A stretch of DNA of 64,000 bases from an uncultured Spartobacteria bacterium. GTDB lineage: Bacteria; Verrucomicrobiota; Verrucomicrobiia; Chthoniobacterales; Chthoniobacteraceae. The stretch covers positions 1 through 64,000 of the forward strand of contig CAIXGS010000028.1 of the NCBI GenBank assembly GCA_903919125.1, in the 5' to 3' direction. Below are positions 793 to 16,045 of the stretch, piece after piece. The number at the start of each line of letters is the position of its first letter. The first letter of the stretch is position 1. The notes under the pieces were generated by a model. The model was given only the letters and a program-made list of their open reading frames with translations. It did not search any database and was not told where the DNA came from. The position numbers were made by a program, and so were the translations under genes.

Positions 793-2094
793 TCAAAAAC
801 GATAGCAAATCAGCCGCGGCGAGGCACCGTCAGCGGAACGCTCATTCTGCATCACCAAAAACCGGCGTCCGGCCAAAACTGGAAGGCCCCACGTCTCCGG
901 CGCTTCGAACAACCTAGTGCGTTGCAACACTTCAAGCCCCTTGCCACCTGCTTTGAAGCGCACCAACTCTCCAAATTCCCCAAGCGCAACCACACCCGCT
1001 TCCCCAAGATCCAGCAGACTTCCGCGCCCGAAATTTCCGCCCAAATCGGACCGCCATTTTTCCTCGCCGCTCTCTGCCTCCAGACACACCAACTCCGCGA
1101 GCCTCGGACTCTGACCGTCGAAACCGAGAATCAGTCCGTCCTTAAACAGCGGCGTTCCAAAGTGCGAGCCGAGCTTCACCGTGCCCCAAACCTTCCGCAG
1201 CGAACCATCCGCCCCAATCTCGCTTAGGACACCCCCACTGCCATAAGCCTCGGTCGTGAATACGCGATTTACCCCGACCAAAACCGGAGACGCCGCATTC
1301 ACGGATTCCGCAATCCTCGCCCGGTGAGGCACTTCGCCAAGGACCTTTCCCGTCTCAGCATCCAAATACAACAAGCCGCCCGTCGCAGGACGGCTCTGAC
1401 CTCCCGCAAACACAAGGACGCCATCCCGTTGCGCGGACCCCACCCCGAACTTCGCGGGAATCGCCGACGCATACCCAGCGCCCCAAGCGTGCTTCGCCAC
1501 CCAAACCTCCGCCCCGTCTTTTGCAGAAAGCGCGACCACGCAACGCTCTTGAGAACCGCCAATGGGCACAATGACTTTCCCTCCCAGCACTAGCGGCGTG
1601 GAACCGTGCCCGAAAAAATTTGGCTCCATGGCGTAATCCTCACCGAGGTTTCGCATCCACAAAACCTTTCCCGAATTCAACTCCACGCAATGCAACACGC
1701 CGGTGATTCCAAAAGTCCAAACCTTGCCGTCCGCGACGACAGGACCCGTCCGCGGTGCGTCGCCAGAACCGTAGCGATCCCGATAGGAAACATCGTAACC
1801 CATGCGCCAGAGCACTTTCCCAGAGTCCAAACTGAGGCAGCTTAAAACTTCCTGCCCCGCCTCGCGATGAAAGAGCAACACCTTTCCGTCGACGACCGCA
1901 GGCGGCGCCCAGCCTTTTCCTTTGGGAAAATCCCACTCCCGCACCAGACCGGACTCGGGCCAAAAACCCTTGGCATCGGCGGGCGCCACGCGCGAATCGT
2001 TACCAGGCCCGAAGAGACGCGGCCAGTCGCCTGCCGAAACGGAACTCGAACCGCCGAGGCACAAGCCAACTACCATCCAGATGAAACGCCTCAT
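793..2094 (-). CDS. Secreted PQQ-like beta-propeller protein (operon gene 10)
   Basis: A 433-residue protein with an N-terminal signal peptide (about residues 1-21, cleavage near SVSAG) followed by DWPRLFGPG, the opening motif typical of quinoprotein-like propellers in Verrucomicrobiota and Planctomycetota. Propeller blades are marked by repeats such as LDSGKVLW, LNSGKVLW, LDAETGKVL and LEAESGEEKW, spaced about 40-50 residues apart. It lacks the vicinal cysteine pair and cytochrome domain of true PQQ alcohol dehydrogenases, so it is better read as a BamB/PQQ-like fold protein whose ligand or partner is unknown. It should act in the periplasm or at the cell surface. Its ATG overlaps the stop of the preceding gene by 4 nt (ATGA), so it is translationally coupled to the chorismate-lyase/halogenase-like fusion. 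It is the last gene of the operon. Confidence 0.85.
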   Translation of the reverse strand: MRRFIWMVVGLCLGGSSSVSAGDWPRLFGPGNDSRVAPADAKGFWPESGLVREWDFPKGKGWAPPAVVDGKVLLFHREAGQEVLSCLSLDSGKVLWRMGYDVSYRDRYGSGDAPRTGPVVADGKVWTFGITGVLHCVELNSGKVLWMRNLGEDYAMEPNFFGHGSTPLVLGGKVIVPIGGSQERCVVALSAKDGAEVWVAKHAWGAGYASAIPAKFGVGSAQRDGVLVFAGGQSRPATGGLLYLDAETGKVLGEVPHRARIAESVNAASPVLVGVNRVFTTEAYGSGGVLSEIGADGSLRKVWGTVKLGSHFGTPLFKDGLILGFDGQSPRLAELVCLEAESGEEKWRSDLGGNFGRGSLLDLGEAGVVALGEFGELVRFKAGGKGLEVLQRTRLFEAPETWGLPVLAGRRFLVMQNERSADGASPRLICYRF

Positions 2095-3923
2095 GCAGTG
2101 ACGAGGGACGCGGGCGCGCGACCATGTTTGAGAGGTTCAGGAAGCGACGCAAACTCGGCAACTCTGGCAAAAAGCTCTGAGTAATCCTTGCCGTCGACGT
2201 CACCAATAAGACAGTCCGTGAGCTTGCCTCTCATTTCCGGGTATTTGCGGAGCATGTCGGCGAAGCTGAAGTTTTCGTCGTAAAACGCGTACACGAGGTT
2301 ACGCATATTCTCGATAGATTCACACAGCCTCTCACCATATTCCTCGAAAAAAGAACCACTTACAATACCTTGAGAAAGCGCCGCATCCACCGCTTCCGCC
2401 GCCATCTCGCCACTCTTGAGGGCGAGGAAAACGCCGCTGGAAAATACCGGGTCAAGAAACGCAAACGCGTCACCGGCCAACAGCAGGCCATCCGAGGCAC
2501 ACGCACGGGAGCGATACGAATATTCTCCGGTCACCCAATACTCGCCAGTCTGTTCCGATGGAGCAAGGTACTCGCGAATCCACGCATTGTTTTCGACTTC
2601 ACGGCGCATAATCTCCGCCGGATCTTTCGAACCGGAAAACAAGTAGTCGCGCTCCGCAACAATCCCGACACTCACGATATTTCCGCGCAAAGGAATGTAC
2701 CAAAACCACCCGCGCTGAGGGACGTAGGCGACAGTGGTGTTTCCTTCGTCGATCCCTTCGTCCCTCTTGGCGTTCTTGTACAGAGTCCATACAGCAATTT
2801 TGTTGAGCTTCGGATCACGCACGCGCCAGCCTTCCTTCAAAGTCGCAACCTGTTCACGGCCTGAGCAATCTATGGTGATAGGAGCGAACGCCTCAAAAGA
2901 ATTTCCCTCAGCATCAACCGCCTGCACGCCCACCACAGTCCCCGCGTCATTCTTGAGCACGCGCTCCACACGGGTGCGTTCATGCACCTCGACGCCCGCC
3001 TTCTTTGCGTTCTCAAGGAGCATCAAATCAAAATCTGCGCGCTCGACCTGCCAGGTATTTGCTGCCGGGTGATCCAGATGTTGGAAGAAGTAAAAGGGCT
3101 GGGATTTCTTACCTTCGGGCGTCACAAACTGGACGCTATACTTCCGCGTAAACGCGATGCGCTCCATTTCCTCGAGCACCCCTAACTTCGAAAGCGTGAA
3201 CCAACAAAACGGCATCAGCGACTCACCCACGTGGTAGCGCGGAAACTTCTCCTTCTCCAAAAGTAGTACGCTGCGCCCCTTGGCGGAGAGCAACGCCGAA
3301 GCGGTCGCGCCCGCAGGCCCGCCACCGATTACAATCACATCATACTGAGTTTTGATCGGCACAGAATTCGCAGTTTTATTCATAGAATGTTTAACAGGAA
3401 GAACCTCTACAATTCGCGCAAGAACCTTTCCGCACTCTAGGCGCAGGATATTGCACCGCCCATACATCTCCAACTCGGTAGACACCCCGAGCAGTTGGGC
3501 CAGTTGCGTGTCATGCCGCACTGAAAAGTAAGCCTGCGGTTCGCTATGATACTTTAAGCCGCTCGCGTTCAAAAGCCCTCCCAACGGCACGCGCCCATCC
3601 AAAATTTGGCGCTGCAACGCCGGCTCAAAATGCTCCAAAAAAATCTCAATCGCACCATACTCCACCGACCCTGCATTCGCACTCCCGCGTAGCAGCACCT
3701 CGCGAAAATAAGCGCCTCCGTCGCGCTCCAATTTCAAAACCTCCAAATGAATTTCGCTTTGGTGAAACGCCTCAAGACGCGACGTCATGTCACCCTCGTG
3801 CACTAACAGAGTTCGGAAAGGCTCCGGCAACGCGGAAGTCGCGACGGGCTCGAAAGTGTCACGCCCCACCGCACGAAAGCGCCGCAGCGGAGACAGTAAT
3901 TCTTCAAACGATACGGTGCTCAT
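2091..3923 (-). CDS. Chorismate-lyase-like / flavin-dependent halogenase-like fusion protein
   Basis: A 610-residue two-domain protein. Residues about 30-178 resemble chorismate pyruvate-lyase (UbiC/DUF98): LLVHEGDMTSRLEAFH, FREVLLR (Arg74 matches the UbiC substrate arginine) and VPLGGLL. This domain should cleave chorismate to 4-hydroxybenzoate and pyruvate. Residues about 194-600 are an FAD oxidoreductase of the halogenase/geranylgeranyl-reductase superfamily: GGGPAG (200-205), FPRYHVGESLMP (227-238), GWFWYIP (405-411; the halogenase WxWxIP motif) and GDAFAFLDPVFSSGV. Lys261 lies where phenol halogenases carry their catalytic lysine. I chose ATG 3923 because it overlaps the previous stop by 4 nt; an upstream ATG at 4058 would add 45 unrelated residues. 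No stop separates the domains, though Met181 could be an internal start. The second UbiC arginine is not obvious. Hydroxylation instead of halogenation is possible. Confidence 0.75.
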   Translation of the reverse strand: MSTVSFEELLSPLRRFRAVGRDTFEPVATSALPEPFRTLLVHEGDMTSRLEAFHQSEIHLEVLKLERDGGAYFREVLLRGSANAGSVEYGAIEIFLEHFEPALQRQILDGRVPLGGLLNASGLKYHSEPQAYFSVRHDTQLAQLLGVSTELEMYGRCNILRLECGKVLARIVEVLPVKHSMNKTANSVPIKTQYDVIVIGGGPAGATASALLSAKGRSVLLLEKEKFPRYHVGESLMPFCWFTLSKLGVLEEMERIAFTRKYSVQFVTPEGKKSQPFYFFQHLDHPAANTWQVERADFDLMLLENAKKAGVEVHERTRVERVLKNDAGTVVGVQAVDAEGNSFEAFAPITIDCSGREQVATLKEGWRVRDPKLNKIAVWTLYKNAKRDEGIDEGNTTVAYVPQRGWFWYIPLRGNIVSVGIVAERDYLFSGSKDPAEIMRREVENNAWIREYLAPSEQTGEYWVTGEYSYRSRACASDGLLLAGDAFAFLDPVFSSGVFLALKSGEMAAEAVDAALSQGIVSGSFFEEYGERLCESIENMRNLVYAFYDENFSFADMLRKYPEMRGKLTDCLIGDVDGKDYSELFARVAEFASLPEPLKHGRAPASLVTA

Positions 3924-5266
3924 ACGTAACGAGAGTTCTGATGTTGTGGCAGAAAAAAGGCGTGCAGTAGAGAGTCGACTTTGAGGAGCGCCTCGCGGGT
4001 TAGCTCGAAGAAGGCCCCGTTCCACAAACCCAAACCTTGCGCAATTAAGTCGTTCCACTGCAGATTAAAGCGCACAATTATATCCTCGCTGAACTTCTGC
4101 TTAAAGTACTCCGCAGATACCCGACCGAGTTTCATTTGCAAAATCAACTCGCGGATCATTCGCTCCTCGGGCGTCGTTGCCATCGCACGCAACACCGGAA
4201 ATTCACCCCGCTCAGTGGTCTCAATGTACTGTTCAATCTCGGTGATATTTTGAAAGTGAACTCCTCCAAGATGAGAGAACGCTGAGACGCCCGCGCCTAT
4301 AAGATCAGCGCCCTTCCACAGAGAATCGCGATACACAAACTTCGTGCGCTCAGGATTGCGCACTGCGGTGTAACCACTCGTCACGGTGTAACCGGCTTTC
4401 TCCAACTCGGCGAAAGCGTAGCCCGTCCAAGCCCGCTTCGTGGCCCAATTCGCCACAGGAGCCACCAGCTTCCCCTCCGCTTTCATCTGTTTGAAAATGC
4501 CCGTGTTATACGGAACTTCCATCTGATAAATCGTTACGCAATCCGGCTCTAACTCAATAAGCTTACGCACGTTTTCACGCCAATTCTCTTCCGTCTCCTC
4601 CACCATCCCGGAGATTAAATCGATGTTGATCTGAGGAAATCCCGCAGCCCGAGCAGCCCCATAGGCCCGGTGAATCTCATCTGCCCGATGCGCTCTTCCG
4701 TTTATCTCTAAAATATGCGAATCGAAATTCTCCACGCCCAGACTTAATCGGGTCACTCCAAGCTCCCGAATCGCCTTCAACTTCCCTTCGTTCAAAGTTC
4801 CCGGTTCCGCTTCAAACGTCACTTCCTCCGCCTGCTCCCAAGGCAGGATTTCCTTCATGCGATCGCTCAGCGACTTAAGCTGCGCAACGCTCAGATAACT
4901 TGGCGTGCCCCCTCCAAAATAAACAAAACGAGGAAGACGCCCCGCCACAAAAGGAGTGGCCGCATAACGCTTCAGCTCCGCAATGCCCGCGTCTAAATAA
5001 CGCTGAATCTCGCTCGCATTCCGCTCCGTATAAACGCGGAAATAACAAAAATGACAGCGTTTACGACAAAATGGGATATGGAAATACACACCTAGCGGCG
5101 TGAGCGGTTCCGCGGGCTTCGAGAGCAATTCGCCCAAGTGACGCGCCGTTCCAGGATCCCAAAAATGAAACGGCGGATAGTTGGAGACAAAATAATTTCC
5201 CGCAGTGGTCTCGCCCGCTTCCGGAGTTTCGTTTGTGGTTGGTACTGTTGAAGTGGCAGAGGTCAT
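3920..5266 (-). CDS. HemN/HemW-like radical SAM protein
   Basis: A 448-residue radical S-adenosylmethionine enzyme. The [4Fe-4S] motif is HIPFCRKRCHFC (Cys67, Cys71, Cys74; CxxxCxxC), followed by the HemN-family elements VYFGGGTPSYL, VTFEAEPGTL, RLSLGVENFD and INIDLISGM. A C-terminal HemN-type domain (LRAMATTPEERMIRELILQMK) follows. Family members include coproporphyrinogen III dehydrogenase (HemN), the heme chaperone HemW, and class C radical SAM methyltransferases of natural-product pathways. The operon context, between a propeller gene and an aromatic-acid enzyme, fits a pathway-specific modification better than general heme synthesis, but this is inference. The start at 5266 lies 2 nt after the preceding gene's stop; the stop overlaps the next gene by 4 nt. 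The enzyme is cytoplasmic. Confidence 0.85.
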   Translation of the reverse strand: MTSATSTVPTTNETPEAGETTAGNYFVSNYPPFHFWDPGTARHLGELLSKPAEPLTPLGVYFHIPFCRKRCHFCYFRVYTERNASEIQRYLDAGIAELKRYAATPFVAGRLPRFVYFGGGTPSYLSVAQLKSLSDRMKEILPWEQAEEVTFEAEPGTLNEGKLKAIRELGVTRLSLGVENFDSHILEINGRAHRADEIHRAYGAARAAGFPQINIDLISGMVEETEENWRENVRKLIELEPDCVTIYQMEVPYNTGIFKQMKAEGKLVAPVANWATKRAWTGYAFAELEKAGYTVTSGYTAVRNPERTKFVYRDSLWKGADLIGAGVSAFSHLGGVHFQNITEIEQYIETTERGEFPVLRAMATTPEERMIRELILQMKLGRVSAEYFKQKFSEDIIVRFNLQWNDLIAQGLGLWNGAFFELTREALLKVDSLLHAFFLPQHQNSRYV

Positions 5267-5268
5267 GG

Positions 5269-6411
5269 CTATTTCTTTGGGACTTTAAGGCCGTGTACGG
5301 TTCCGTCTTCAGTGCCGATCACAATCCAACCGTCGGTGACCGCCGGCGATGCAGTTACAGGCGAGCCAAGGTCGTACGCCCAGCGCTCTTTCCCATCCGC
5401 GAGTGAGACGCCATACAAGCGGCCGTCAAAACTTCCCACCACAACGGTGTCCCCGCACACCACAGGCGAACCATCAACCTTTCCGCGCGTCGCAAATTCC
5501 CAGAGCTCCTTCCCAGAGTCACGCTCAATGCAATGCAGACGCTTATCGCCACCTCCAATGAGAACGCGATCCGCCACAACCGCTGCGCTCGAAAGATAAG
5601 GAAAGCTCCGACTGCGGAACGTCCACGAAACGGAAGCCTCCTTCGGATTCAACCCAAGCACGACGTTTCCGTAATTCCCAACGTAGGCCATTCCATCTGA
5701 TGCAACTGCAACAGAGGATGCAATATACGCGTCTGCATCAATGTGCCGCAACTGCTTACCTTCGGCCACCGATACGATTCGCAACTGAGAATCACAGCCT
5801 CCAAAAACGAGCTCTCCACCCGGCAATAGCGCAGGCGTTCCATTGATGTAATTATCAGTCGCAAAGGTCCACACCGCCTTACCGCTCGCAGCGTCTACGC
5901 AATGCAATTGAGAGTCGTAGCTCCCGATGAAAATCCAGTCACTCGCTCCATCCGGACTCTTTGCGGTGTTGGCTCCGCCAATAATTTTATCACCCGTCGC
6001 GTAAGTCCAAACCTTTGCGCCAGTCTCAAAATCGAGTGCGTAGAGGACGCCGTCACCCGCACCGATAATCACTCGTCCCCCGAGCACTAGAGGCGTGGCC
6101 TCAATTGGAGCGTCCGTTTTGAACGACCATATTTCGATGCCCTTTTCGAGACTGAGCGAGTGCAAAACTCCAGCATCATCACCAATAAAAAGTCTGCCCT
6201 TCACAATCGCCGCACCGCCCTTGATCGGCTTTCCCGTCGCAAAATTCCAAACCTCTTTGGGACACTCACCAGCCTCCATGGAAGAAACCCCGGCTAGCGT
6301 TGGACCGCCTCGGTGCATGAACCAATCCGCATGAACCGCAGGCGCGGCGGCGAACATTGAGGCACCAAGCAATCTGCAGAATAATGGATTTTTGAACCAA
6401 GAATTGCTCAT
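5269..6411 (-). CDS. Secreted PQQ-like beta-propeller protein (operon gene 7)
   Basis: A 380-residue protein with a signal peptide (residues 1 to about 28, ending AVHA), then DWFMHRGGPTLAGVS, a variant of the DWPxWRG opening. Propeller blades are regular and nearly all ligand-repeat: LEKGIEIWSF, FETGAKVWTY, AASGKAVWTF, RDSGKELWEF and LADGKERWAY, each about 40 residues apart, so most of the protein is one closed propeller of the BamB/PQQ type. No cytochrome or catalytic module is attached, so a scaffold or ligand-binding role outside the inner membrane is the conservative reading. Its start codon overlaps the stop of the iron alcohol dehydrogenase gene by 4 nt, and only 2 nt separate it from the radical SAM gene. 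A secreted protein is thus tightly embedded between cytoplasmic enzymes. Confidence 0.85.
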   Translation of the reverse strand: MSNSWFKNPLFCRLLGASMFAAAPAVHADWFMHRGGPTLAGVSSMEAGECPKEVWNFATGKPIKGGAAIVKGRLFIGDDAGVLHSLSLEKGIEIWSFKTDAPIEATPLVLGGRVIIGAGDGVLYALDFETGAKVWTYATGDKIIGGANTAKSPDGASDWIFIGSYDSQLHCVDAASGKAVWTFATDNYINGTPALLPGGELVFGGCDSQLRIVSVAEGKQLRHIDADAYIASSVAVASDGMAYVGNYGNVVLGLNPKEASVSWTFRSRSFPYLSSAAVVADRVLIGGGDKRLHCIERDSGKELWEFATRGKVDGSPVVCGDTVVVGSFDGRLYGVSLADGKERWAYDLGSPVTASPAVTDGWIVIGTEDGTVHGLKVPKK

Positions 6412-7544
6412 GCAAGAACCTCGTGGTAAAGCCCTTCAAAATCCAATACTGAGTATTCGACCGGATTAAAAGACGCGGTCCATTGCATCGCAGCCTCGGC
6501 CGCCATTTCCGGCAATGACCCCCGAGTCACCCCGAGCTGGGAGAGCGAAACTTGTAGACCAGCCAACGGCAGGAGCGCCGCAAAATGAGTCTGCAACTCC
6601 TCGACAGAGTTCAAACCAGCATGACGAGCCAGCGCCAAATACTCAGCCGCCGCTGTTGCATTCTGGAGGTTGCGACGGAGCACGCCCATCGCGAGCAGTC
6701 CCACCGCATGACCATGCGCAACTCCATATTTGGCAGTGAGAGGATTGGCCGCCGAATGCGTGCAACCCAGCATCGAATTCTCAATAGCCATCCCCGCGTA
6801 CGCAGCCCCAAGCTGCATCTGACCGCGCGCCTCCACATCTCCTGGAACGGACAGCACCCTCGGCAGCGCATGAATACACAAACGAAATGCCTCCCGTGAA
6901 AACAACTGGGAAAGTGCGCCCCGCTTTTTAGTCACCGCAGTTTCCAGCGCGTGGACAAGCGCGTCGATTCCGGTGCAGGCCGTCACTCTGGGCGGCTGGG
7001 ATAGCGTGAGCTCGGGATCCAACAGCGCGATTTTAGCAGCGGCTTTCGGATCGCCACACGCCATTTTCAAATGCGAAACCGGATCGCTGATGAGCGCAAA
7101 CGACTGACATTCGCTTCCAGTCCCTGCCGTCGTGGGAATAGCGATAAGAGGTAGCATAGGCAGCGAGGCCTTCCCTATTCCCTTATAATCAGCAATTTGC
7201 CCACCATTAGTGAGCACAAAATTCGCGCCCTTTGCCGTGTCCATTGCGCTGCCGCCACCGAGACCGACAAACAAATCAACGCCCTGCGCTCGAGCGACTG
7301 CCACACAACGCTCCACATCACGTGCGTCCGGATTTTCGCGCACACCGTCAAACATCGTTGCCTCCAGCCCCTCGGAACGCAACGCCTCGAGCGCGCGTTC
7401 AGCGTGACCGGCCGCTACTATTCCAACATCCGTGACCACAAGGACGCGAGTGCCTCCCAATTCGCGCGCCAGTTGCCCGACGCGCGAAAGCGCACCCGCA
7501 CCGAAGATAAGTCTCGTCCGCGGCTGGTAGTCAAACGGAAGCAT
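6408..7544 (-). CDS. Iron-containing alcohol dehydrogenase
   Basis: A 378-residue member of the group III (iron-dependent) alcohol dehydrogenases, which interconvert aldehydes and alcohols with NAD(P)H in the cytoplasm. The NAD-binding N-terminal domain has GGGSAMDTAKG (97-106) and TTAGTGSE (138-145). The C-terminal helical domain supplies the metal ligands Asp194 and His198 (in TGIDALVHALE), His263 and His277 (HGHAVGLL), all intact. The length is usual for the family. It sits 11 nt downstream of the aldehyde dehydrogenase/acyl reductase gene and overlaps the next propeller gene by 4 nt. In this operon the natural role would be reduction of the aldehyde made by its neighbours to an alcohol (inference); the reverse direction is chemically possible. 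Confidence 0.9.
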   Translation of the reverse strand: MLPFDYQPRTRLIFGAGALSRVGQLARELGGTRVLVVTDVGIVAAGHAERALEALRSEGLEATMFDGVRENPDARDVERCVAVARAQGVDLFVGLGGGSAMDTAKGANFVLTNGGQIADYKGIGKASLPMLPLIAIPTTAGTGSECQSFALISDPVSHLKMACGDPKAAAKIALLDPELTLSQPPRVTACTGIDALVHALETAVTKKRGALSQLFSREAFRLCIHALPRVLSVPGDVEARGQMQLGAAYAGMAIENSMLGCTHSAANPLTAKYGVAHGHAVGLLAMGVLRRNLQNATAAAEYLALARHAGLNSVEELQTHFAALLPLAGLQVSLSQLGVTRGSLPEMAAEAAMQWTASFNPVEYSVLDFEGLYHEVLA

Positions 7545-7555
7545 GGCAAAAGGCT

Positions 7556-9019
7556 TTAGGCGCGCTCGATCGAACGCCGCTTGTAGAGAAACTCAAACAT
7601 GTTCCCTTCATGCGGCTGATCCCATGAAATTTTCATCGTCGAGATCGGTCCCAAATTGAGACGTTCGATCAACGGCGAATCTAACAGCTGAGAAGTAAAC
7701 GCTTCGTCCTTCGTGATTGCCGTGACCACCAAAGACGCACCGATTTGTCCGAGCATCTCACTCTGCGCCACTTCCACAACGCTTGCATACGGGCAAAGAA
7801 ATTCTCGGTTTGCCAGCGGATGTGAAAACGAATCGCACCGCACAATTGTCGGGCGTAAAAACGTGCCACCTTCAAAAATGGCCTTCCGTTCCCCGTGACG
7901 GTATCGGGCCGTTACATCTTCAGCGCCATTGACTTTCAATCCGTCTTCGATCGCTGAGTCAATGTAGTCGGCCATCTTTGGATTCGCGAAGCCTGAAAGC
8001 TTTGCTCCCTCATCGTCAGAACGCAAGGGGGTCACCGGGCCGAGTTTTTGAGCCAGAGCCTCGGCTATTTCTTTCCCGTAACGAGGCACCACGACAGCCG
8101 AAGCGTTCACACAAGAGCGCCCGCCATTTTCCGCGATAGATGCGGCCATCAACTCGATATATTCCGGCCACTGCTCCACACAATCTTCGCCGAGCAGGAT
8201 CTTTGAAAAGCCCGGGCCGTGCACAGAAAACTTGGGGTTGTCCCGATATTGCGCGACCGTGTTGGCATCGCCAAAGATCAGAGCTCGTCCGCACAGACGC
8301 ATGACCTCACCGGCACCCTCATGATCCGTCGGATAAAAACCAAACGCTTCTGGCGGCGCCCCAGCAGCGATGAATGCCTGGATGAGACGGTACGGAGTCC
8401 ACGGCTCCTCGCGGCCCGGCTTGATCACCACAGGAGTCTTGAGCGCGATGGCTGGAAGCCAAAGCGAATTCACTGCGGGCGAATTGCTCGGCATGACCAA
8501 TCCAAGCGCCTGGGTAGTAGGATAATAACTCACTGCAGCTCCGCTCTGCTCACCGTAGCCCCGATCGATGACCTCCAGGGGAAGTCCACGGGTGAGCCCG
8601 TTCAGCACCGTTCCCACGTGGGTAAGCGCGTAGTGAATCTTCGCCATATTCCGGCGAACCATGACGTGCGGCAAACCGCTGGTCCCAGAGAGCGTACGCA
8701 CATATTCATCGGCCGATTGCGTATGACCGCGATCCCCGAGCGGCAAGGTGCCCTCCAAAAACAACTCCCCGGCCTTGGCGGAAATCTCAATCAACTCCGC
8801 TACAGTAAACTTGCGTAAAGCGGCGCGTCCTTCATCGATACGCTGGAGATCTTTTTTCAAAATCCCAGCATTCACCTGGCTCACCACAGCCACGACCTTG
8901 CCCGTGCTGTGATCGACAATCTCACTTTTCTCGAGACTGTCGTAGGGGCGTCCACGCCGAAGTGCTGGCAAGTGCGGCAGCGTGTCTAGTGATAGAGTTT
9001 CCATTGATAAAGTTTCCAT
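7556..9019 (-). CDS. Aldehyde dehydrogenase-superfamily (acyl/aryl) reductase, EhpG/LuxC-like
   Basis: A 487-residue ALDH-superfamily enzyme. Cofactor-binding and catalytic elements are visible: MPSNSPAVNSLWLPAIAL (176-193), VIKPGREEPW with Lys200, and ENGGRSCVNAS with the nucleophile Cys303. Together with the adenylating enzyme encoded just upstream it resembles the EhpF/EhpG pair of griseoluteic-acid (phenazine) biosynthesis and, more distantly, LuxE/LuxC. In such pairs an activated carboxylate is reduced by NAD(P)H to the aldehyde. The ATG at 9019 overlaps the upstream stop by one base (TAATG), which fixes the start and implies translational coupling; the longer open frame to 9448 is only shadow sequence of the upstream gene. 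The N-terminus has a small in-frame duplication (METLSMETLS). Oxidation of an aldehyde is the alternative role. Confidence 0.8.
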   Translation of the reverse strand: METLSMETLSLDTLPHLPALRRGRPYDSLEKSEIVDHSTGKVVAVVSQVNAGILKKDLQRIDEGRAALRKFTVAELIEISAKAGELFLEGTLPLGDRGHTQSADEYVRTLSGTSGLPHVMVRRNMAKIHYALTHVGTVLNGLTRGLPLEVIDRGYGEQSGAAVSYYPTTQALGLVMPSNSPAVNSLWLPAIALKTPVVIKPGREEPWTPYRLIQAFIAAGAPPEAFGFYPTDHEGAGEVMRLCGRALIFGDANTVAQYRDNPKFSVHGPGFSKILLGEDCVEQWPEYIELMAASIAENGGRSCVNASAVVVPRYGKEIAEALAQKLGPVTPLRSDDEGAKLSGFANPKMADYIDSAIEDGLKVNGAEDVTARYRHGERKAIFEGGTFLRPTIVRCDSFSHPLANREFLCPYASVVEVAQSEMLGQIGASLVVTAITKDEAFTSQLLDSPLIERLNLGPISTMKISWDQPHEGNMFEFLYKRRSIERA

Positions 9020-10089
9020 TAGTAGACTCCTTCCACGATCGTTTTCTGCATTGCGCCAAAAGGACGTACCTCCGCCACGCCGTCCCACGCGTACTGACCA
9101 CGCGGTCTGCGACGGATGGCTTCGTCGCGCTCCAGGAAGCGGGGCATGAAAAACTCGCGAGTCAAGGTGGTGAGTTCCACTCGTCCCCAGGCGTCGTAGT
9201 CCACGGTGGTTGCGGTGTTTTCTGGATCCACAACACGAAGAATTGCACGAGGTTGCGGAGCGTAATAGGTAATCGAGAACTGATCTGCGGGCGTCAACGG
9301 CACGGACGCAGCCAGCCCCATTAAGGTGTTTCCGTACGTCGGATAAAAGCCGATCCGATTCTCGAGAACCTCCTCCACGATGAACCGTGTGTACTGAGGC
9401 AACATCGTCGTACCGCCGCAGAAGACTCCGCGGATGCCGGCATCCCAAATGTTCACACGTTCAGCCAGGGCTTCGAGAAGCTTGGGCGTTGTGAACAAAC
9501 CGCTCACCTTGCGATGCTTTAAGATATTCGCAGCCTGATCCACGACATGCTCCATATAGGCCTTCGCCTGATCAAAATGTTTGTTAGTAATCAGACGCTT
9601 CACCCAGCGGGGATCGAGGTCGATAAAGTAGCAGGCGGAACCCCGCACGTTGGCGAGATGTTCGATAGCGAGACGCAACCGCCGGGGACCGGTGGGGCCC
9701 ATCATCAGCCAGTAATGGTTACGGGGGAAATGTTCGTCGCTGATTTTATCGCTGAACTCGCTGTAATCCACCTTGTAGTCGTCCCACCCGATGCGCTGCT
9801 TCGGCATTCCAGTGGTGCCGCCGGTCTCAAAAATATTAAAAGGACGTCCGGCAAATGCCTTGGGGACCCATACTTCAGGCTGCAGATCACGGAGCCATTC
9901 GTCTTCGAAATGAGGGAACTTCTGCAAATCCGCGACCGTCTTAATCTCTGTGCGAGGATCCCAGCCGGCTTTGGCAGCCCAGTTCAACCAAAATGGGGAA
10001 CCGGTTTCTGGGCTAAAATGCCAATTAACAATTTCTTGTAGGTGTGATTCAAGCGCGGCGTGTGCGGCTTCGGGAGTGGGAGCTGTCAT
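9019..10089 (-). CDS. EhpF/PaaK-like adenylate-forming enzyme
   Basis: A 356-residue atypical member of the ANL adenylating superfamily. The ATP-binding loop is FETGGTTGMPKQR (87-99), and FYPTYGNTLMG supplies the second conserved motif. A C-terminal region with VDYDAWGRVELTTL resembles the end of the large domain. The small C-terminal ANL domain, usually about 100 residues, seems to be absent, as in EhpF and LuxE-type proteins, which activate an aromatic or fatty acid as its adenylate and pass it to a partner reductase. Family knowledge gives the activation step; the substrate here is unknown, but a 4-hydroxybenzoate derivative is plausible because a chorismate-lyase-like domain is in the same operon. 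Its stop and the next start share one base. It is cytoplasmic. Confidence 0.8.
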   Translation of the reverse strand: MTAPTPEAAHAALESHLQEIVNWHFSPETGSPFWLNWAAKAGWDPRTEIKTVADLQKFPHFEDEWLRDLQPEVWVPKAFAGRPFNIFETGGTTGMPKQRIGWDDYKVDYSEFSDKISDEHFPRNHYWLMMGPTGPRRLRLAIEHLANVRGSACYFIDLDPRWVKRLITNKHFDQAKAYMEHVVDQAANILKHRKVSGLFTTPKLLEALAERVNIWDAGIRGVFCGGTTMLPQYTRFIVEEVLENRIGFYPTYGNTLMGLAASVPLTPADQFSITYYAPQPRAILRVVDPENTATTVDYDAWGRVELTTLTREFFMPRFLERDEAIRRRPRGQYAWDGVAEVRPFGAMQKTIVEGVY

Positions 10090-10139: not shown

Positions 10140-11840
10140 TTAATGCACGCTGCGAGCGGGCTCTACGGCCTTTTCAGCTTTCGGTTCAGGCAACAAAAAG
10201 CTCAGCGCAAATCCGAGAGCGAAGACGGTCGTGCCCACTACACCCGCCGCAAAAGCCACCTTGTCGAAGGTCGATACTCCGGGCATGAGCGGTGCTAAAA
10301 TGTTCGTTGTTAAAAAAGCTGCCGAAGTCCCAATCATACGGCCTCCCACATTTGTGGCAAAGGAACCACCCGTGCCACGCAAGTGCACAGGAAAAACCTT
10401 GGGTAAAAACTCGCCGAAATACGAAAACTGCGCGACCACTAAAAGTCCGCAAACCGCTATGGCCCAGTTTAATCCAGCGCCACCAGTGTGATACAGTGAG
10501 AAATAAGTCAACGGAACTGCGAGCAATCCCGGGACGAGAAAAATTCTAAGCAACCGACGGCGCGTCACGGCGAGGAGCACCAGGATCGCGAGCAAAATCC
10601 GGCCGGTCAAACCACCTATCTCCTGCCAAAACTGAGCGGCATTTCCCCGCGCTTTGATCGCCTTGTCGGGCGTTTCTTGTTTTTCCCGATTGTCTCCGAG
10701 TTGTTTGAGCAGCTTTTCCCGCTCCACAAGGCTCTTTTTAGCATCAGGCACCGCGGCCGTAAGTTGATCCAACTCCTCGCCTAATGCCTTAAATTCGACA
10801 CCAAGTTCCGCCGCCCGTGCTTTGTCGTCAGCCTTGAGCGCCGCTCGGAACGCAATGCGATTCTTCGCCCGCTTCGCAGCCAATTCGCGCAGCCCTGGAA
10901 CGGCTCCGAAGGCCGCCTTTAGAGCGGGATCGAGTTCCAAAATCCCGACGTTAATCGTCCGCGCCTCGTCCTGCAGCGGCTTGAGGACCGCACGCTGCTC
11001 GGCGAGTTCCGGTACGCCCGGAATAATCCGCAGCGGCGTGAGTTGCAGCGCGCCAAAAGCGGCGGCGTAAGCGCACGCTGAGAGCGCCGCGGTCACCAAA
11101 GTCGTACGCCGCAGCTCTGGAGTAAACAGGCCGGCCAGACTTGGCCGGGCGAGGGAGCCGGAGGCACGGCGCTCCAACCAGACGCGGGACTCAGGAACAA
11201 ACGGAAGCAAAAGAGCGATGGGAAGCGCTGGGATAATGCCAGTCATCAGCGTGTAGCGCCACGCAGCGTGCGCATTGAAAACATCAGGGATTGGCAACTC
11301 TCTAAATTCATTGGAATGAATTACAATCCAACCATTTAACGCGGTCACCAAAATGCCTCCGAGCGAAGCGAAAGCCTGCGTAAATCCGAGCGCAAACTCG
11401 CGCTGCTTCCGATCTTCAAACAACTCCGCCAGCCAAGTAATGGCTGCGATAAACTCAATGCAGACGCCAACGAAGGTGAGGCTGCGGAAAAAAACGAAGC
11501 TCGCGAGAGTGGTGGAGAACGCTGCCGCAAACGGCGAAAAAGCGTAAAGAAAAATGCTGGCTGCCATGATGCGCTTCCGACCAAAACGATCAATCAGCCA
11601 ACCACCCATCAGCCCAAATGTGCCGCCGCACAGCGCAGATATCCACAGCATCCGTCCGGTCCAATCTGTCACCAAGGGATTGTTCGGCGGAAGGCCGAGC
11701 AATTCGGCAATGGCCGGAACGCCCACCAGCGGCGTCATCAGTAATTCGTAAGTGTCGAAAAGAAATCCGATGCTTGCAATGATCAGGACAAGGATTCGCG
11801 TCCGTGAATCAATCGAAGACGTACCGGAAGAAGTGCTCAT
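10140..11840 (-). CDS. MFS transporter with a large periplasmic insertion
   Basis: A 566-residue major facilitator. TM1 carries GFLFDTYELLMTPLV, recalling the GFLFDxYD signature of aromatic-acid and sugar porters, and the TM2-3 loop has the family motif LIDRFGRKR (83-90). After TM7 (about 248-268) comes a charged, helix-rich segment of about 135 residues (275-408), full of Ala, Glu, Lys and Arg, before TM8. By MFS topology this loop is periplasmic. Usual MFS length is 400-450, so the insertion explains the extra size. I chose ATG 11840 because the upstream extension to 11894 is arginine/proline-rich and not family-like. In the operon it is the only transporter, so export of the pathway product or uptake of a precursor is likely; direction cannot be read from sequence. 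Confidence 0.85.
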   Translation of the reverse strand: MSTSSGTSSIDSRTRILVLIIASIGFLFDTYELLMTPLVGVPAIAELLGLPPNNPLVTDWTGRMLWISALCGGTFGLMGGWLIDRFGRKRIMAASIFLYAFSPFAAAFSTTLASFVFFRSLTFVGVCIEFIAAITWLAELFEDRKQREFALGFTQAFASLGGILVTALNGWIVIHSNEFRELPIPDVFNAHAAWRYTLMTGIIPALPIALLLPFVPESRVWLERRASGSLARPSLAGLFTPELRRTTLVTAALSACAYAAAFGALQLTPLRIIPGVPELAEQRAVLKPLQDEARTINVGILELDPALKAAFGAVPGLRELAAKRAKNRIAFRAALKADDKARAAELGVEFKALGEELDQLTAAVPDAKKSLVEREKLLKQLGDNREKQETPDKAIKARGNAAQFWQEIGGLTGRILLAILVLLAVTRRRLLRIFLVPGLLAVPLTYFSLYHTGGAGLNWAIAVCGLLVVAQFSYFGEFLPKVFPVHLRGTGGSFATNVGGRMIGTSAAFLTTNILAPLMPGVSTFDKVAFAAGVVGTTVFALGFALSFLLPEPKAEKAVEPARSVH

Positions 11841-11926
11841 GGAGAGGAAAAGAGGGAAAAGAGAAGAAGGTAAACCAACACCACGCCGCCGCACTTCGTA
11901 GCACGGCGGCGGCGAGGTGAGATGAG

Positions 11927-13519
11927 TTACGGCTTGACGGCAGCCTCCACGGGCTTCGCTCCGTCACCCACTGCAAACAGATGAGTCTGAGACGTTAAGT
12001 ACATGATCCCATTTGCTACGATTGGGGTGGAGAGCACTGGCGCTCCCAAGTTGCACTCGCTCAGAATCTTCTTTTCCTTACTAGAAGCGAAGACCACGAG
12101 ATCCCCATCCTCATCACCGACGTAAACTTTACCATCGACCACCAAAGTGGAGCCCCACATGTGAGCCTGCATGTCGTGGACCCAGTGCAGTTTGCCTGTG
12201 TCTGCGTCGAGGCAGTGCACGAAGCCGGAGAAGTCGGCGATATAGAGCAGACCATTTTCGGGGTCGATTGATACCGTGGAGATGGAGCGTTTGATTCCCT
12301 TGTAATCCCAAATGAGTGCAGTGGAAGTCACATCGCCCTCCTTCGTCGGATCGATACAAAGCAAACGCCCAACACCCTCGCCGTGTTCAGGATCCTGACC
12401 AACGGCAACATAAACTCGGTCTTTGTAAAACACTGGCGTCGCATTGACTTCGCTAGGTCCTTCCGCCGCAGGGTACTTGATATTCTTGCCGTTCTTATCC
12501 TTCTTGTATTCGGGCGGAACGCAATCAAAAGACCAGATCGTCTTGAGTGTGTTGGTGTCGCCTTCTTTCACAGGCTTTGCGTCGAGAGCGTAAAGAACGC
12601 CGTCGCCACCGCCGAAAAAGACTTGGGTCTTGCCGTTCACTTTTCCAATGGAAGGTGAGGTCCACTGACCGTGTAGAATTCTGGGCCCAACGCCAGCATT
12701 GTCTTCTCCAATGAGTTCGCCGGTATTTTTATCGAGAGCGATGAACGAGGGCGATTGCGGCGAAGGAATGTTCACATGGGTCCAGTCCTGTCCATTGGAG
12801 GTACAGACAAAAACGGAGTCCCCTTCGATGATGACAGAACAGTTCGAAGCGTTATGCGGAAACACGCCTAACTCGTCCATCATGTCATACTTCCAAAGAA
12901 TATCAGCATCTGTGGGAAGCACCTCCACCTTAGGTTTACCCGGACCGGCCACGTACTGCCCCTCATCCATAAAGGGACCTTGATTGCCATTCGCCTGGCC
13001 ATGTAAATCAAGGCATAAAACCTCACACCGACTCGTCACGACGTACACGCGGTCGCCTTCAACGCAGGGAGAGGAAAGCAGGCCGAGATACTCCCAGTCG
13101 TTGACCTTGCCAGATGCGAGCTTCGGAACGGTCAACTGCCATAGCAATGCGCCATCGGACTCGCGCAACGCGTACAAAACCGACTTGTCATCCTTGAACC
13201 GCGGGTCACGCGGAGTCGCATTATTGGTTCCCACTAGCAACACGCCCCGCGAGACCACTGGGTTTCCGTACGACTGCGAGCCCAACTTCGCGATCCACTT
13301 GACGTTTTTAGTGGTCGCCAAGTCGATCTCCTCCGAGTTCGGCTTAAACTTTCCGGGTTGAATAGCGGATGGCAACCCTTTGGCTGGGGAAAACATATTA
13401 CGCCCCTGATCGTTGCCGCCCCAGCGTGGCCAATCTTCGGCTGTGGCGGTAAATGCGATGGCGGCAAAGCAGACAATCATGCCAGCAACGGGCATGGAGG
13501 AATGTTGGGAGGATTTCAT
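11927..13519 (-). CDS. Secreted PQQ-like beta-propeller protein (operon gene 2)
   Basis: A 530-residue protein with a signal peptide (hydrophobic stretch about residues 10-27, cleavage after ATA) and then EDWPRWGGNDQGRNM. Propeller repeats include LRESDGALLWQL, LDKNTGELIG and LDADTGKLHW, followed by VDGKVYVGDEDGDLVVF near the end. The length and opening resemble the planctomycete/verrucomicrobial outer-membrane-protein-assembly-like quinoproteins. No vicinal cysteines or heme motif are visible, so enzymatic use of PQQ is not supported. It is separated by 11 nt from the first operon gene and by about 86 nt from the MFS gene. Its paralogues in the operon (at 793, 5269 and 13531) differ in length and are not recent tandem copies. 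Confidence 0.85.
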   Translation of the reverse strand: MKSSQHSSMPVAGMIVCFAAIAFTATAEDWPRWGGNDQGRNMFSPAKGLPSAIQPGKFKPNSEEIDLATTKNVKWIAKLGSQSYGNPVVSRGVLLVGTNNATPRDPRFKDDKSVLYALRESDGALLWQLTVPKLASGKVNDWEYLGLLSSPCVEGDRVYVVTSRCEVLCLDLHGQANGNQGPFMDEGQYVAGPGKPKVEVLPTDADILWKYDMMDELGVFPHNASNCSVIIEGDSVFVCTSNGQDWTHVNIPSPQSPSFIALDKNTGELIGEDNAGVGPRILHGQWTSPSIGKVNGKTQVFFGGGDGVLYALDAKPVKEGDTNTLKTIWSFDCVPPEYKKDKNGKNIKYPAAEGPSEVNATPVFYKDRVYVAVGQDPEHGEGVGRLLCIDPTKEGDVTSTALIWDYKGIKRSISTVSIDPENGLLYIADFSGFVHCLDADTGKLHWVHDMQAHMWGSTLVVDGKVYVGDEDGDLVVFASSKEKKILSECNLGAPVLSTPIVANGIMYLTSQTHLFAVGDGAKPVEAAVKP

Positions 13520-13530
13520 GACAGTAAAAA

Positions 13531-15993
13531 TTAGCGGGTTGCAGTGTTATTCGGGACTACGGAGATATTGTCGATCCAGGCGCGTTGCTCTTGCGGAGTG
13601 AAGGAAAACAAGCCGGGCGCACCCTCGGTATGAGCGTGTTTATGAGCCACTTCGATGGTCCAAACGGCAGGCTCTTCCTCGCCTTTTTTCCAGGCTTTGG
13701 CTTTCACTGAACCGCTACCATCTGCCGCAACGTCGACTCGCGCTTTGAGGCGGTACCATTGATTAGGCACCCAGGCGAAGGGGACAGATTCACGGAAGCG
13801 TTCCTGATTGGAGCTGACTTCGAGCTGCTGGGAGTTTCCTTTTAGCACCACCAGATAGCGTTGGTTGATGAGGCCGATCTCACTCATTTTCCTTTTGTTC
13901 CCCTCAGTTAAGACATCCATTTCGAGGGTGTAATTTTTTGAGCCCGGGCGACCGATAAAGATTTGTCCGCGCTGAAATAGCTTGTTCTCAATGGTTTTGC
14001 AAAGAGCCTTCGTCCCTCCCTCGCCGGGTGCCTGACGCACTTCAAAACGAAACCGAGCAGCGTTCCACGCCAGAGGCGGATAGGCAAATGCGGTAGGCGG
14101 CTCGAAAGTGTTGGGCACAGCGGGCGCGGGCGGGGCATCTGTGCTGAGCGCAAGATCGAATGGTTCGAAGTCCACTTTCAAGGGCAAATCCGGCAGCACG
14201 CGTGCGCGCATGGTTCCTTTGATATCCCCATAAGTTGCCTGATATGCGCCCGCACTCGCCACTGGGGCGGGATCTGCGACGAGGCGACCAGTCGCATCAA
14301 ACCCGCCCTTCATCTGCGCTTTGACCAACGCGGTGGGCGGAATGTAACTCTCAAATGTGACCTTCGAGAGATCCACATTCTCAACCACCGTAAATCCCCT
14401 CGCATCCAGAGCGCGCACCCGAACAGACTTGGCTTCAGCTGGACTGAGAATTAATTCGCTTGGGATAATTTGCAAACGAGCGGCAGGGCCGGGCTCGATG
14501 GCTGGCCACTCATCGTTGGACTTTACCAGACTGGAACTTGGATTCAGGCCCTTTTTGCCGAAGCAATACAGTTTGCGGTCTGTCTGTACGTAAAGCTTAC
14601 CGTTGAATGCAATAGGAGATCCATAGCAACGCCCTTCCAGAATGGTCCGAGACAAAATTTGTACATCTGAGTCACCGGGCTTGAGGACAAAAAGTTCGCC
14701 ATTGCCTCCAGTATCGCCGCTGCCGCTCGCCGCCGCGGACGCAGTGGCATCCGCAATGTACATGGCGACGTACAGCTTGCCGTCCCCGTAAAGAGGGGAA
14801 CTCTGGCGTTGTTCGGCAGCGAGTTTCTTCTTCCAAATGATCTTCCCATCCTCTAGCTGAACTGCGGCAAGCTCCCCAGTTCCAGTGACTTCATACATGC
14901 GATCTCCAACCAGCACTGGCGAACTTGCGAGACTTCCCAAGGGATTACGCCATTGCTCCAACTCTTTGGGCTCGTAGACTTGCGGCTTGCCAAACTCAGG
15001 CGGTTTGCTGCCTTGAGGAAGCTTGAAAGAGGCGGTGCGCCCCACCTCGCTCGAATCTAAATTCTCCGATTCGTGCAAAACGATAAGGTTGTCTTTATAC
15101 CGCACAAGAGCCGCGTTGATTCCGCCCTTCGCACCGGCCTTAGCTGCTGGGAAACGAAACATGGGATCACCAGTGCGCGCGTTTATGCCGATGACCGTCG
15201 AGTCGCCTCCAGCTGAAATCAGGACGCGCTTTCCGTCCAACCAGGTTAACAAAGGTTGAGAGAACGTATTGTCCTGTGGACGCTCGCCGGGCGAACTGCT
15301 CCACACTAATTCTCCGGTGCGTTTATCGAAGGCGTAAAGCCGATCACCCGCTGCGCCGTTAGCACCCCAGTTTGAGGTAATTCCGCGAGTGATCACCAAC
15401 TCGTGATCGATCCTAGGAGAAGCCGTTCTGGAGTTCGGAAAGGTCAGACGCCCCAATTCCTCCATGAGCGAATGTTGCCAAAGCAACTGCCCATCCCGCG
15501 TGAAGCACGAAAAAAGCCCCTGAGTGCCCTGAACATACACATTACCGGTTTCTGCATCTACCGCAGGACTCGAAGTCGCATAGCGCAGATAAATAGTATC
15601 GCTCAGGAAGTCGTTAAAACGATGAACCCAGAGTTGCTTGCCAGTTTCAGCGTCGAGGCACGTTACCGCCTCCTGCAAGTCCGGTCCGTCGCCCTGATAG
15701 CCGTTGATGTAAAGACGGCCGTTCGCGATTACTGGGGCGCTCTGGCCAGGGAAGTCGACAGCCCACAAGGGCTTTTTAGCATCGACAACGGAAGGCAGTT
15801 GGGTCTCGGGAGAGACGCCGTTTTGAAACGGTCCGCGCCATTCCAACCAACCCTGTACGGGGGTAGCTTTAGTTTTGGAGGCGGGAGGATTATTAGGCTG
15901 ATCTGGGCTCGTTTTCTTCTCAGCGGCTAGTGTAGTGGAAGTGAGGAGCAGCCCGCAAAGGAGAGAAAAGGGAGGGAGAGAGAAAAGTTTCAT
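13531..15993 (-). CDS. Secreted PQQ-like propeller with C-terminal jelly-roll domain (operon gene 1)
   Basis: An 820-residue secreted protein and the probable first gene of the operon. A signal peptide (MKLFSLPPFSLLCGLLL, cleavage near LAAEK) is followed by a proline-rich linker and GWLEWRGPFQNGVSPET, the propeller opening. The propeller spans about residues 45-500 with repeats such as LDAETGKQLWVHRF, FDKRTGELVWSS and LEDGKIIWKKKL. Residues about 510-620 look like an Ig-like domain (IPSELILSPAEAKSVRVRA). The last 200 residues resemble a LamG/keto-glucoside-hydrolase-like jelly roll (YTLEMDVL, WYRLKARVDV, GLFSFTPQEQRAWIDNISV). I chose ATG 15993 because it directly precedes the signal peptide; the frame is open to 16041. 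Such domains often bind or process carbohydrate, but no catalytic residues can be assigned. Confidence 0.85.
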   Translation of the reverse strand: MKLFSLPPFSLLCGLLLTSTTLAAEKKTSPDQPNNPPASKTKATPVQGWLEWRGPFQNGVSPETQLPSVVDAKKPLWAVDFPGQSAPVIANGRLYINGYQGDGPDLQEAVTCLDAETGKQLWVHRFNDFLSDTIYLRYATSSPAVDAETGNVYVQGTQGLFSCFTRDGQLLWQHSLMEELGRLTFPNSRTASPRIDHELVITRGITSNWGANGAAGDRLYAFDKRTGELVWSSSPGERPQDNTFSQPLLTWLDGKRVLISAGGDSTVIGINARTGDPMFRFPAAKAGAKGGINAALVRYKDNLIVLHESENLDSSEVGRTASFKLPQGSKPPEFGKPQVYEPKELEQWRNPLGSLASSPVLVGDRMYEVTGTGELAAVQLEDGKIIWKKKLAAEQRQSSPLYGDGKLYVAMYIADATASAAASGSGDTGGNGELFVLKPGDSDVQILSRTILEGRCYGSPIAFNGKLYVQTDRKLYCFGKKGLNPSSSLVKSNDEWPAIEPGPAARLQIIPSELILSPAEAKSVRVRALDARGFTVVENVDLSKVTFESYIPPTALVKAQMKGGFDATGRLVADPAPVASAGAYQATYGDIKGTMRARVLPDLPLKVDFEPFDLALSTDAPPAPAVPNTFEPPTAFAYPPLAWNAARFRFEVRQAPGEGGTKALCKTIENKLFQRGQIFIGRPGSKNYTLEMDVLTEGNKRKMSEIGLINQRYLVVLKGNSQQLEVSSNQERFRESVPFAWVPNQWYRLKARVDVAADGSGSVKAKAWKKGEEEPAVWTIEVAHKHAHTEGAPGLFSFTPQEQRAWIDNISVVPNNTATR

Positions 15994-16027
15994 GGGGACG
16001 AGAGAAAGTGGCGGAGGGAGGGCGATA

Positions 16028-16045
16028 TAGTACGCATACATACTA
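16028..16045. promoter_or_regulatory. Imperfect palindrome upstream of the propeller/aryl operon
   Basis: TAGTACGCATACATACTA has matching outer arms (TAGTA/TACTA) and pairs at seven of nine symmetric positions. It lies about 35 nt upstream of the chosen start at 15993, in the 228-nt region shared with the divergent gene at 16222. That is a usual place for an operator, and a TACTAT element on the minus strand could serve as a -10 box. No second copy was found in the intergenic region, so this is only a candidate site. Confidence 0.3.

Follow-up and report, generated by a model that had tools for sequence, protein, structure and literature searches.

A putative EhpF/EhpG-type arylcarboxylate reductase and three co-inherited partner genes in Verrucomicrobiota

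Results

The window, by which we mean the whole 64,000-nucleotide stretch analysed from contig CAIXGS010000028.1 of an uncultured Spartobacteria bacterium (assembly GCA_903919125.1), carries an operon-like run of genes on the minus strand, between positions 16041 and 793. The run opens with the gene for pq836 (13531..16041; PQQ_2, 8.9e-26), a secreted propeller with a C-terminal extension. It is followed by the secreted eight-bladed propeller pq530 (11927..13519; PQQ_2, 5e-20) and by an MFS transporter of the aromatic-acid:H+ symport type (10140..11894; MFS_1, 6e-19; TIGR00895, 4.3e-22, under its cut-off). Next come an EhpF-type adenylating protein of 356 amino acids with a short ANL architecture (9019..10089) and an EhpG-type protein of 487 amino acids, a putative acyl-AMP reductase of the ALDH fold (7556..9019; Pfam Aldedh, 8e-14). 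The sequence-only reading had named an iron alcohol dehydrogenase as the next gene, and a protein of 378 amino acids of this kind is indeed encoded there (Pfam Fe-ADH, 2.1e-50; best NCBIfam model ErcA, 2.4e-84, under its cut-off), but at 6408..7544, outside the stated interval from 7556 to 10089. The remainder of the operon encodes the secreted BamB/PQQ-like beta-propeller pq380 (5269..6411; PQQ_2, 4.7e-43; signal-like N terminus by visual inspection), a HemN-like radical SAM protein (rSAM; 3920..5266), a fusion protein of 610 amino acids (2091..3923) and the secreted propeller pq433 (793..2094; PQQ_2, 2.1e-21). The fusion joins an N-terminal domain with a predicted chorismate-lyase/DUF98 fold (clN; 3390..3923) to a C-terminal flavin-dependent halogenase-like domain (2091..3389; Trp_halogenase, 1.6e-31); in some relatives the two are separate genes or lie on separate contigs. 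The genes are tightly packed: the stop of the EhpF gene and the ATG of the EhpG gene overlap as TAATG, the rSAM stop is overlapped by the clN ATG, pq433 overlaps the stop of the fusion gene, and several junctions are ATGA overlaps. The mechanically called reading frame of the ALDH-like protein begins further upstream, with TTG at 9448; its 487 residues are counted from the ATG. Upstream of the operon, between 17031 and 30203, lie flagellar or motility-type genes, named by eye (MotB-like, flagellar export-like and a sigma factor).

A search of PDB sequences with the 356-residue protein (E up to 0.1) returned EhpF (3hgu/3l2k) as the sole match, covering residues 15-356 with an E-value of 2.3e-44. 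The match runs to the C-terminal end of 3hgu and the protein ends in EGVY, which bears out the earlier description of a short adenylating enzyme lacking the C-terminal ANL domain. In the alignment, the P-loop ETGGTTGMPK, the ERD motif and the terminal EGVY are common to the EhpF-type proteins of Streptomyces, Burkholderia, Pantoea, E. coli and a haloarchaeon. The phylogenetic comparison with PaaK that had been proposed was carried out on 36 of the 119 collected rows; one PaaK-like row, L199, which has stops, was left out. The 30 EhpF-type rows split from the six PaaK-type rows with support of 100/100, and the 21 Verrucomicrobiota rows form a clade of their own, also at 100/100. Kinship with PaaK is not supported, given this split and the lack of any PaaK structure among the PDB matches. 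Similarity to generic profiles is weak for both proteins of the pair, to AMP-binding for the EhpF-type protein and to generic aldehyde dehydrogenases for the EhpG-type protein. At the level of sequence, the kinship of the 356-residue protein with EhpF is clear.

The EhpG-type protein aligns with EhpG of Pantoea over 413 positions at 27% identity (E 3e-34). With EhpF as the only match of its partner among PDB sequences, this upholds the proposal of an EhpF/EhpG-like pair. The TAATG coupling to an ALDH-family enzyme with Cys303 was likewise confirmed: the junction was read in the window, and Cys303 aligns with the catalytic cysteines of E. coli FeaB and AldA. The glutamate of the ELGG motif is the general base in hydrolytic ALDHs. 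In the alignment, this glutamate of FeaB and AldA is replaced by histidine in the window protein, and the same column holds non-acidic residues in the other EhpG-type rows and in the LuxC rows. This replacement suggests that the EhpG-type protein is better suited to reductive acyl transfer than to aldehyde oxidation. A tree of 22 of the 55 collected rows places the LuxC rows on a separate branch (100/100), and a LuxC profile searched against the protein's own genome at E 0.001 found no match; LuxC kinship is thus not supported. The phylogenetic check of the ALDH protein thus set LuxC apart, but grouping with EhpG was not settled by the tree, where the basal fork separating EhpG-type proteins from oxidising ALDHs is not resolved. 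Kinship with EhpG is instead supported by the alignment, which covers most of the protein, the shared loss of the glutamate and the co-occurrence with EhpF, and we accordingly speak of an EhpG-type protein.

The AlphaFold2 model of clN (pLDDT 90.9) has as its best PDB fold the DUF98 protein 2nwi (Z 18.2, rmsd 1.6 over 142 residues). Among enzymes the best match is E. coli chorismate lyase 1g81 (Z 12.2, rmsd 3.0 over 140), in line with a chorismate lyase fold. This score falls within the range of non-enzymatic UTRA-type regulator domains sharing the fold (Z 11 to 13.8), some of which equal or exceed it. A profile search of PDB sequences with clN found 2nwi only (E 0.006), the search against Pfam, run up to residue 167, returned no family at E up to 10, and profile comparison with E. 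coli UbiC is weak (probability 5%). A glutamate near the C terminus of clN aligns with that of 2nwi and lies one position off that of UbiC in the pairwise alignment. The DUF98 proteins include Rv2949c. Formation of p-hydroxybenzoic acid by Rv2949c is reported in PMC7205293.

For the flavoprotein, the best PDB match is the halogenase 3e1t (7.8e-62). All 22 aligned rows share with 3e1t the WxWxIP sequence and a lysine, which together we take to be a halogenase-type motif. The flavoprotein may equally well halogenate or hydroxylate its substrate. The rSAM protein (Pfam Radical_SAM, 1.4e-20; CxxxCxxC at residue 67) matches HemN (1olt, 6.7e-37) and the methyltransferase NocN (2.1e-27) in the PDB, which makes ring methylation one option. 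Among the curated NCBIfam models, every cut-off was missed by this protein.

The five genes for EhpF, EhpG, clN, rSAM and the flavoprotein are inherited together, often on different contigs. EhpF was found at E 0.001 in 14 of 288 Verrucomicrobiota genomes, strongly in 12 of them (E 1.7e-154 or better) and weakly in two, at 31% identity. The 12 strong carriers are also exactly the genomes that hold EhpG, rSAM and a close type of the flavoprotein (at least 48% identity). Other flavoproteins reach at most 37% identity, with a gap in E-value from 2.2e-118 to 5.5e-65. clN occurs in the same 12 genomes and marginally in one more (G177, E 1.6e-4), which has none of the other genes. The carriers belong to six families, at least two of which (f8 and f10) also hold listed genomes devoid of the set; the count of 12 is uncorrected for kinship, and shared ancestry means that the independent events are fewer. 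Among 57 relatives, EhpF was detected in 27 genomes, EhpG in 28 and clN in 28, with 27 common to all three. The singletons are G301, with EhpG and neither EhpF nor clN, and G320, with clN alone; both assemblies are incomplete.

Physical linkage is looser than co-occurrence. Judged from the coordinates listed, EhpF is linked to EhpG in eight of the 12 genomes, and the five genes are spread over three contigs in G190 and four in G199. No more than about 110 bases separate the rSAM and clN genes in 11 of the 12 genomes; in G277 the distance is 2.9 kb. The clN gene of G223 is interrupted by two in-frame stops, whereas its four partner genes match free of stops, which argues against an absolute need for clN. 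At this locus (L041) the interrupted clN gene is flanked by those for rSAM and the flavoprotein. A recurrent neighbour of the rSAM, clN and flavoprotein genes, at L261, L263, L264, L271, L273, L041 and L042, is by its sequence a group 4-type glycosyltransferase.

EhpF-related stretches are widespread in Verrucomicrobiota: at least 570 were recognised among the 591 stretches examined in the genome collection. Neighbourhoods were counted at 103 distinct Verrucomicrobiota EhpF loci out of 125, the window included, after setting aside seven plasmid reference loci, the weak EhpF-like loci L045 and L046 (29% identity) and loci with duplicate EhpF. EhpG lies directly downstream of EhpF at 29 of the 96 loci with enough downstream sequence, and anywhere in the locus at 43 of 103. 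The adjacency described for the window, read there as TAATG, is therefore real but not universal, though the genes co-occur in the searched genomes. The pair is conserved across Verrucomicrobiota and so is not a chance occurrence. In the cultivable Verrucomicrobium sp. BvORR106 (L097), EhpF and EhpG occur together with the alcohol dehydrogenase. The EhpF-like protein encoded at L045 and L046 is distant, at about 30% identity; the two loci have a shared set of neighbours and belong to genomes that contain none of the other four genes.

The gene most often found near EhpF across the phylum is pq530: at 64 of the 81 loci with enough flanking sequence it lies upstream within 3 kb and in the same orientation. 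Its AlphaFold2 model is eight-bladed and BamB-like (Z about 32), and quinoprotein dehydrogenases rank lower among the Foldseek matches. All four propellers of the operon fall under the cut-offs of the NCBIfam models for PQQ-dependent dehydrogenases. PqqC, an enzyme of PQQ biosynthesis, was detected in none of the 19 genomes searched, though no control gave a match in this search either. The possibility that PQQ-dependent dehydrogenases serve as redox partners gains no support from these comparisons. At 12 loci the MFS transporter is replaced by a sodium:solute-symporter-like protein (cluster c11), and at 40 loci, duplicates included, a MarR-like gene is divergent; both names come from reading the sequence, not from profiles. 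The plasmid relatives in Streptomyces, Burkholderia, Pantoea and E. coli adjoin chorismate-using or shikimate-pathway genes. On a Halalkalicoccus jeotgali plasmid (L077:5956-8572), the EhpF/EhpG-type pair adjoins a sodium:solute symporter, and no chorismate gene is shown nearby.

Discussion

We propose that the two proteins form an arylcarboxylate reductase within a chorismate-derived pathway, and put the probability of this reading at roughly 70%. Starting from gene structure, homology, the predicted fold of clN, catalytic motifs, operon linkage and co-inheritance, which the analysis shows, we infer all of the reactions together with substrate, product and propeller function. In the proposed scheme, clN would convert chorismate to a hydroxybenzoate and pyruvate. 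The flavoprotein may halogenate or hydroxylate the hydroxybenzoate, and the HemN-like rSAM protein may modify it further, with no order implied between these two steps. EhpF would adenylate the aromatic acid with ATP to give an acyl-AMP. EhpG would then take the acyl group from the acyl-AMP onto Cys303 and, using NAD(P)H, reduce it to the aldehyde, which the iron-containing dehydrogenase would probably turn into a benzyl alcohol. The MFS protein may carry the product or a precursor across the membrane.

The sequence-only reading of an acid-reducing pair with a possible origin of the acid in chorismate is supported overall, with the reactions, their direction and the alcohol dehydrogenase step kept as conditional here as in the scheme above. 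The chorismate origin is supported indirectly, by a DUF98/UbiC-fold domain that is present in the operon and in all 12 genomes with the pair, interrupted in one. Points against the proposed reading are the lack of a Pfam match for clN, the fold scores of UTRA-type domains, the stops in G223, the singletons G301 and G320, the marginal clN match of G177, the haloarchaeal pair beside a symporter and the base of the EhpG tree. Import-type transporters and the MarR-like neighbour would also fit the uptake of an acid from outside.

Such uptake leads to a different account, in which an environmental aromatic acid is imported and reduced to the aldehyde and alcohol, for detoxification or redox use, while clN, the flavoprotein and rSAM serve some other linked purpose. 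In favour of it, the EhpF-adjacent transporter is similar to symporters of aromatic acids, or a sodium:solute-symporter-like protein stands in its place, the divergent MarR-like gene recurs in the 40 loci counted with duplicates, the haloarchaeal pair adjoins a symporter, and clN is interrupted in G223. We nevertheless regard this account as improbable because in 12 of 12 sampled genomes the pair occurs with clN, rSAM and the close type of flavoprotein, even where the genes are unlinked. Catabolism by a CoA ligase and aldehyde oxidation would suit the weak profile similarities to AMP-binding and generic aldehyde dehydrogenases. It seems very improbable to us, given the separation of EhpF-type proteins from PaaK at full support, PDB matches free of PaaK structures, and a pair in which both the C-terminal ANL domain and the ALDH glutamate are missing.

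An ordinary pathway for a halogenated phenolic antibiotic, similar to a phenazine cluster and of no wider role, would involve the same chemistry as our preferred reading and differ in the purpose of the product. The occurrence of the same enzyme pair in phenazine-type clusters and the halogenase-like motifs of the flavoprotein make this possible, if on balance unlikely: the genes are often distributed over several contigs and still inherited together, unlike those of a transferable cluster, and the flavoprotein could hydroxylate instead.

Returning to the reductase within a chorismate-derived pathway, the dispersal of a gene set that is nonetheless co-inherited suggests a metabolite used by the cell itself. 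We offer tentatively, and as a doubtful extension, that the five genes make an undescribed aromatic molecule with a cellular rather than an antibiotic role in Verrucomicrobiota, for example one that serves the secreted propellers beside EhpF as cofactor or redox partner. The product might be an rSAM-modified, halogenated or hydroxylated hydroxybenzaldehyde or benzyl alcohol made from chorismate. Were the cell to use the metabolite, this could account for some of the numerous secreted quinoprotein-like propellers in Verrucomicrobiota. The pair itself is of an already known kind; no description of the five-gene set was found in the literature searched for chorismate lyase, halogenases and biosynthetic gene clusters in Verrucomicrobiota and for arylcarboxylate reductases. 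By adding three enzymes to the pair, the set lays out a route from chorismate that can be tested. Arylcarboxylate reductases made of two proteins have been described in a few antibiotic pathways, and candidates of this type are here widespread in Verrucomicrobiota.

Several known systems can be compared with the locus. LuxC is the ALDH-fold protein for acyl reduction in the LuxC/LuxE fatty acid reductase. The EhpG-type protein resembles it in lacking the ALDH glutamate and differs in falling outside the fully supported LuxC branch and in coming from a genome with no match to the LuxC profile. clN appears similar to UbiC and DUF98 proteins in its predicted fold (Z 12.2 and 18.2, respectively) and in the glutamate that aligns with 2nwi. 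Unlike them, it is fused to a flavoprotein and has no Pfam match, and its glutamate is one position away from that of UbiC. In grixazone biosynthesis of Streptomyces, the two-protein carboxylic acid reductase GriC/GriD is reported to turn an acid of the hydroxybenzoate type into the aldehyde (PMC10179220). The likeness considered here is one of described function. The acid of the grixazone pathway is 3-amino-4-hydroxybenzoate, which does not come from chorismate lyase. The closest counterpart is EhpF/EhpG of the Pantoea phenazine system (3hgu, 3l2k). The window operon differs from it in having no phenazine core genes, and the Verrucomicrobiota in their distinct EhpF clade (100/100) and often unlinked genes. 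Features common to both systems are an alignment that spans most or all of each protein, a short ANL protein with EGVY at its end, coupled genes and a conserved cysteine.
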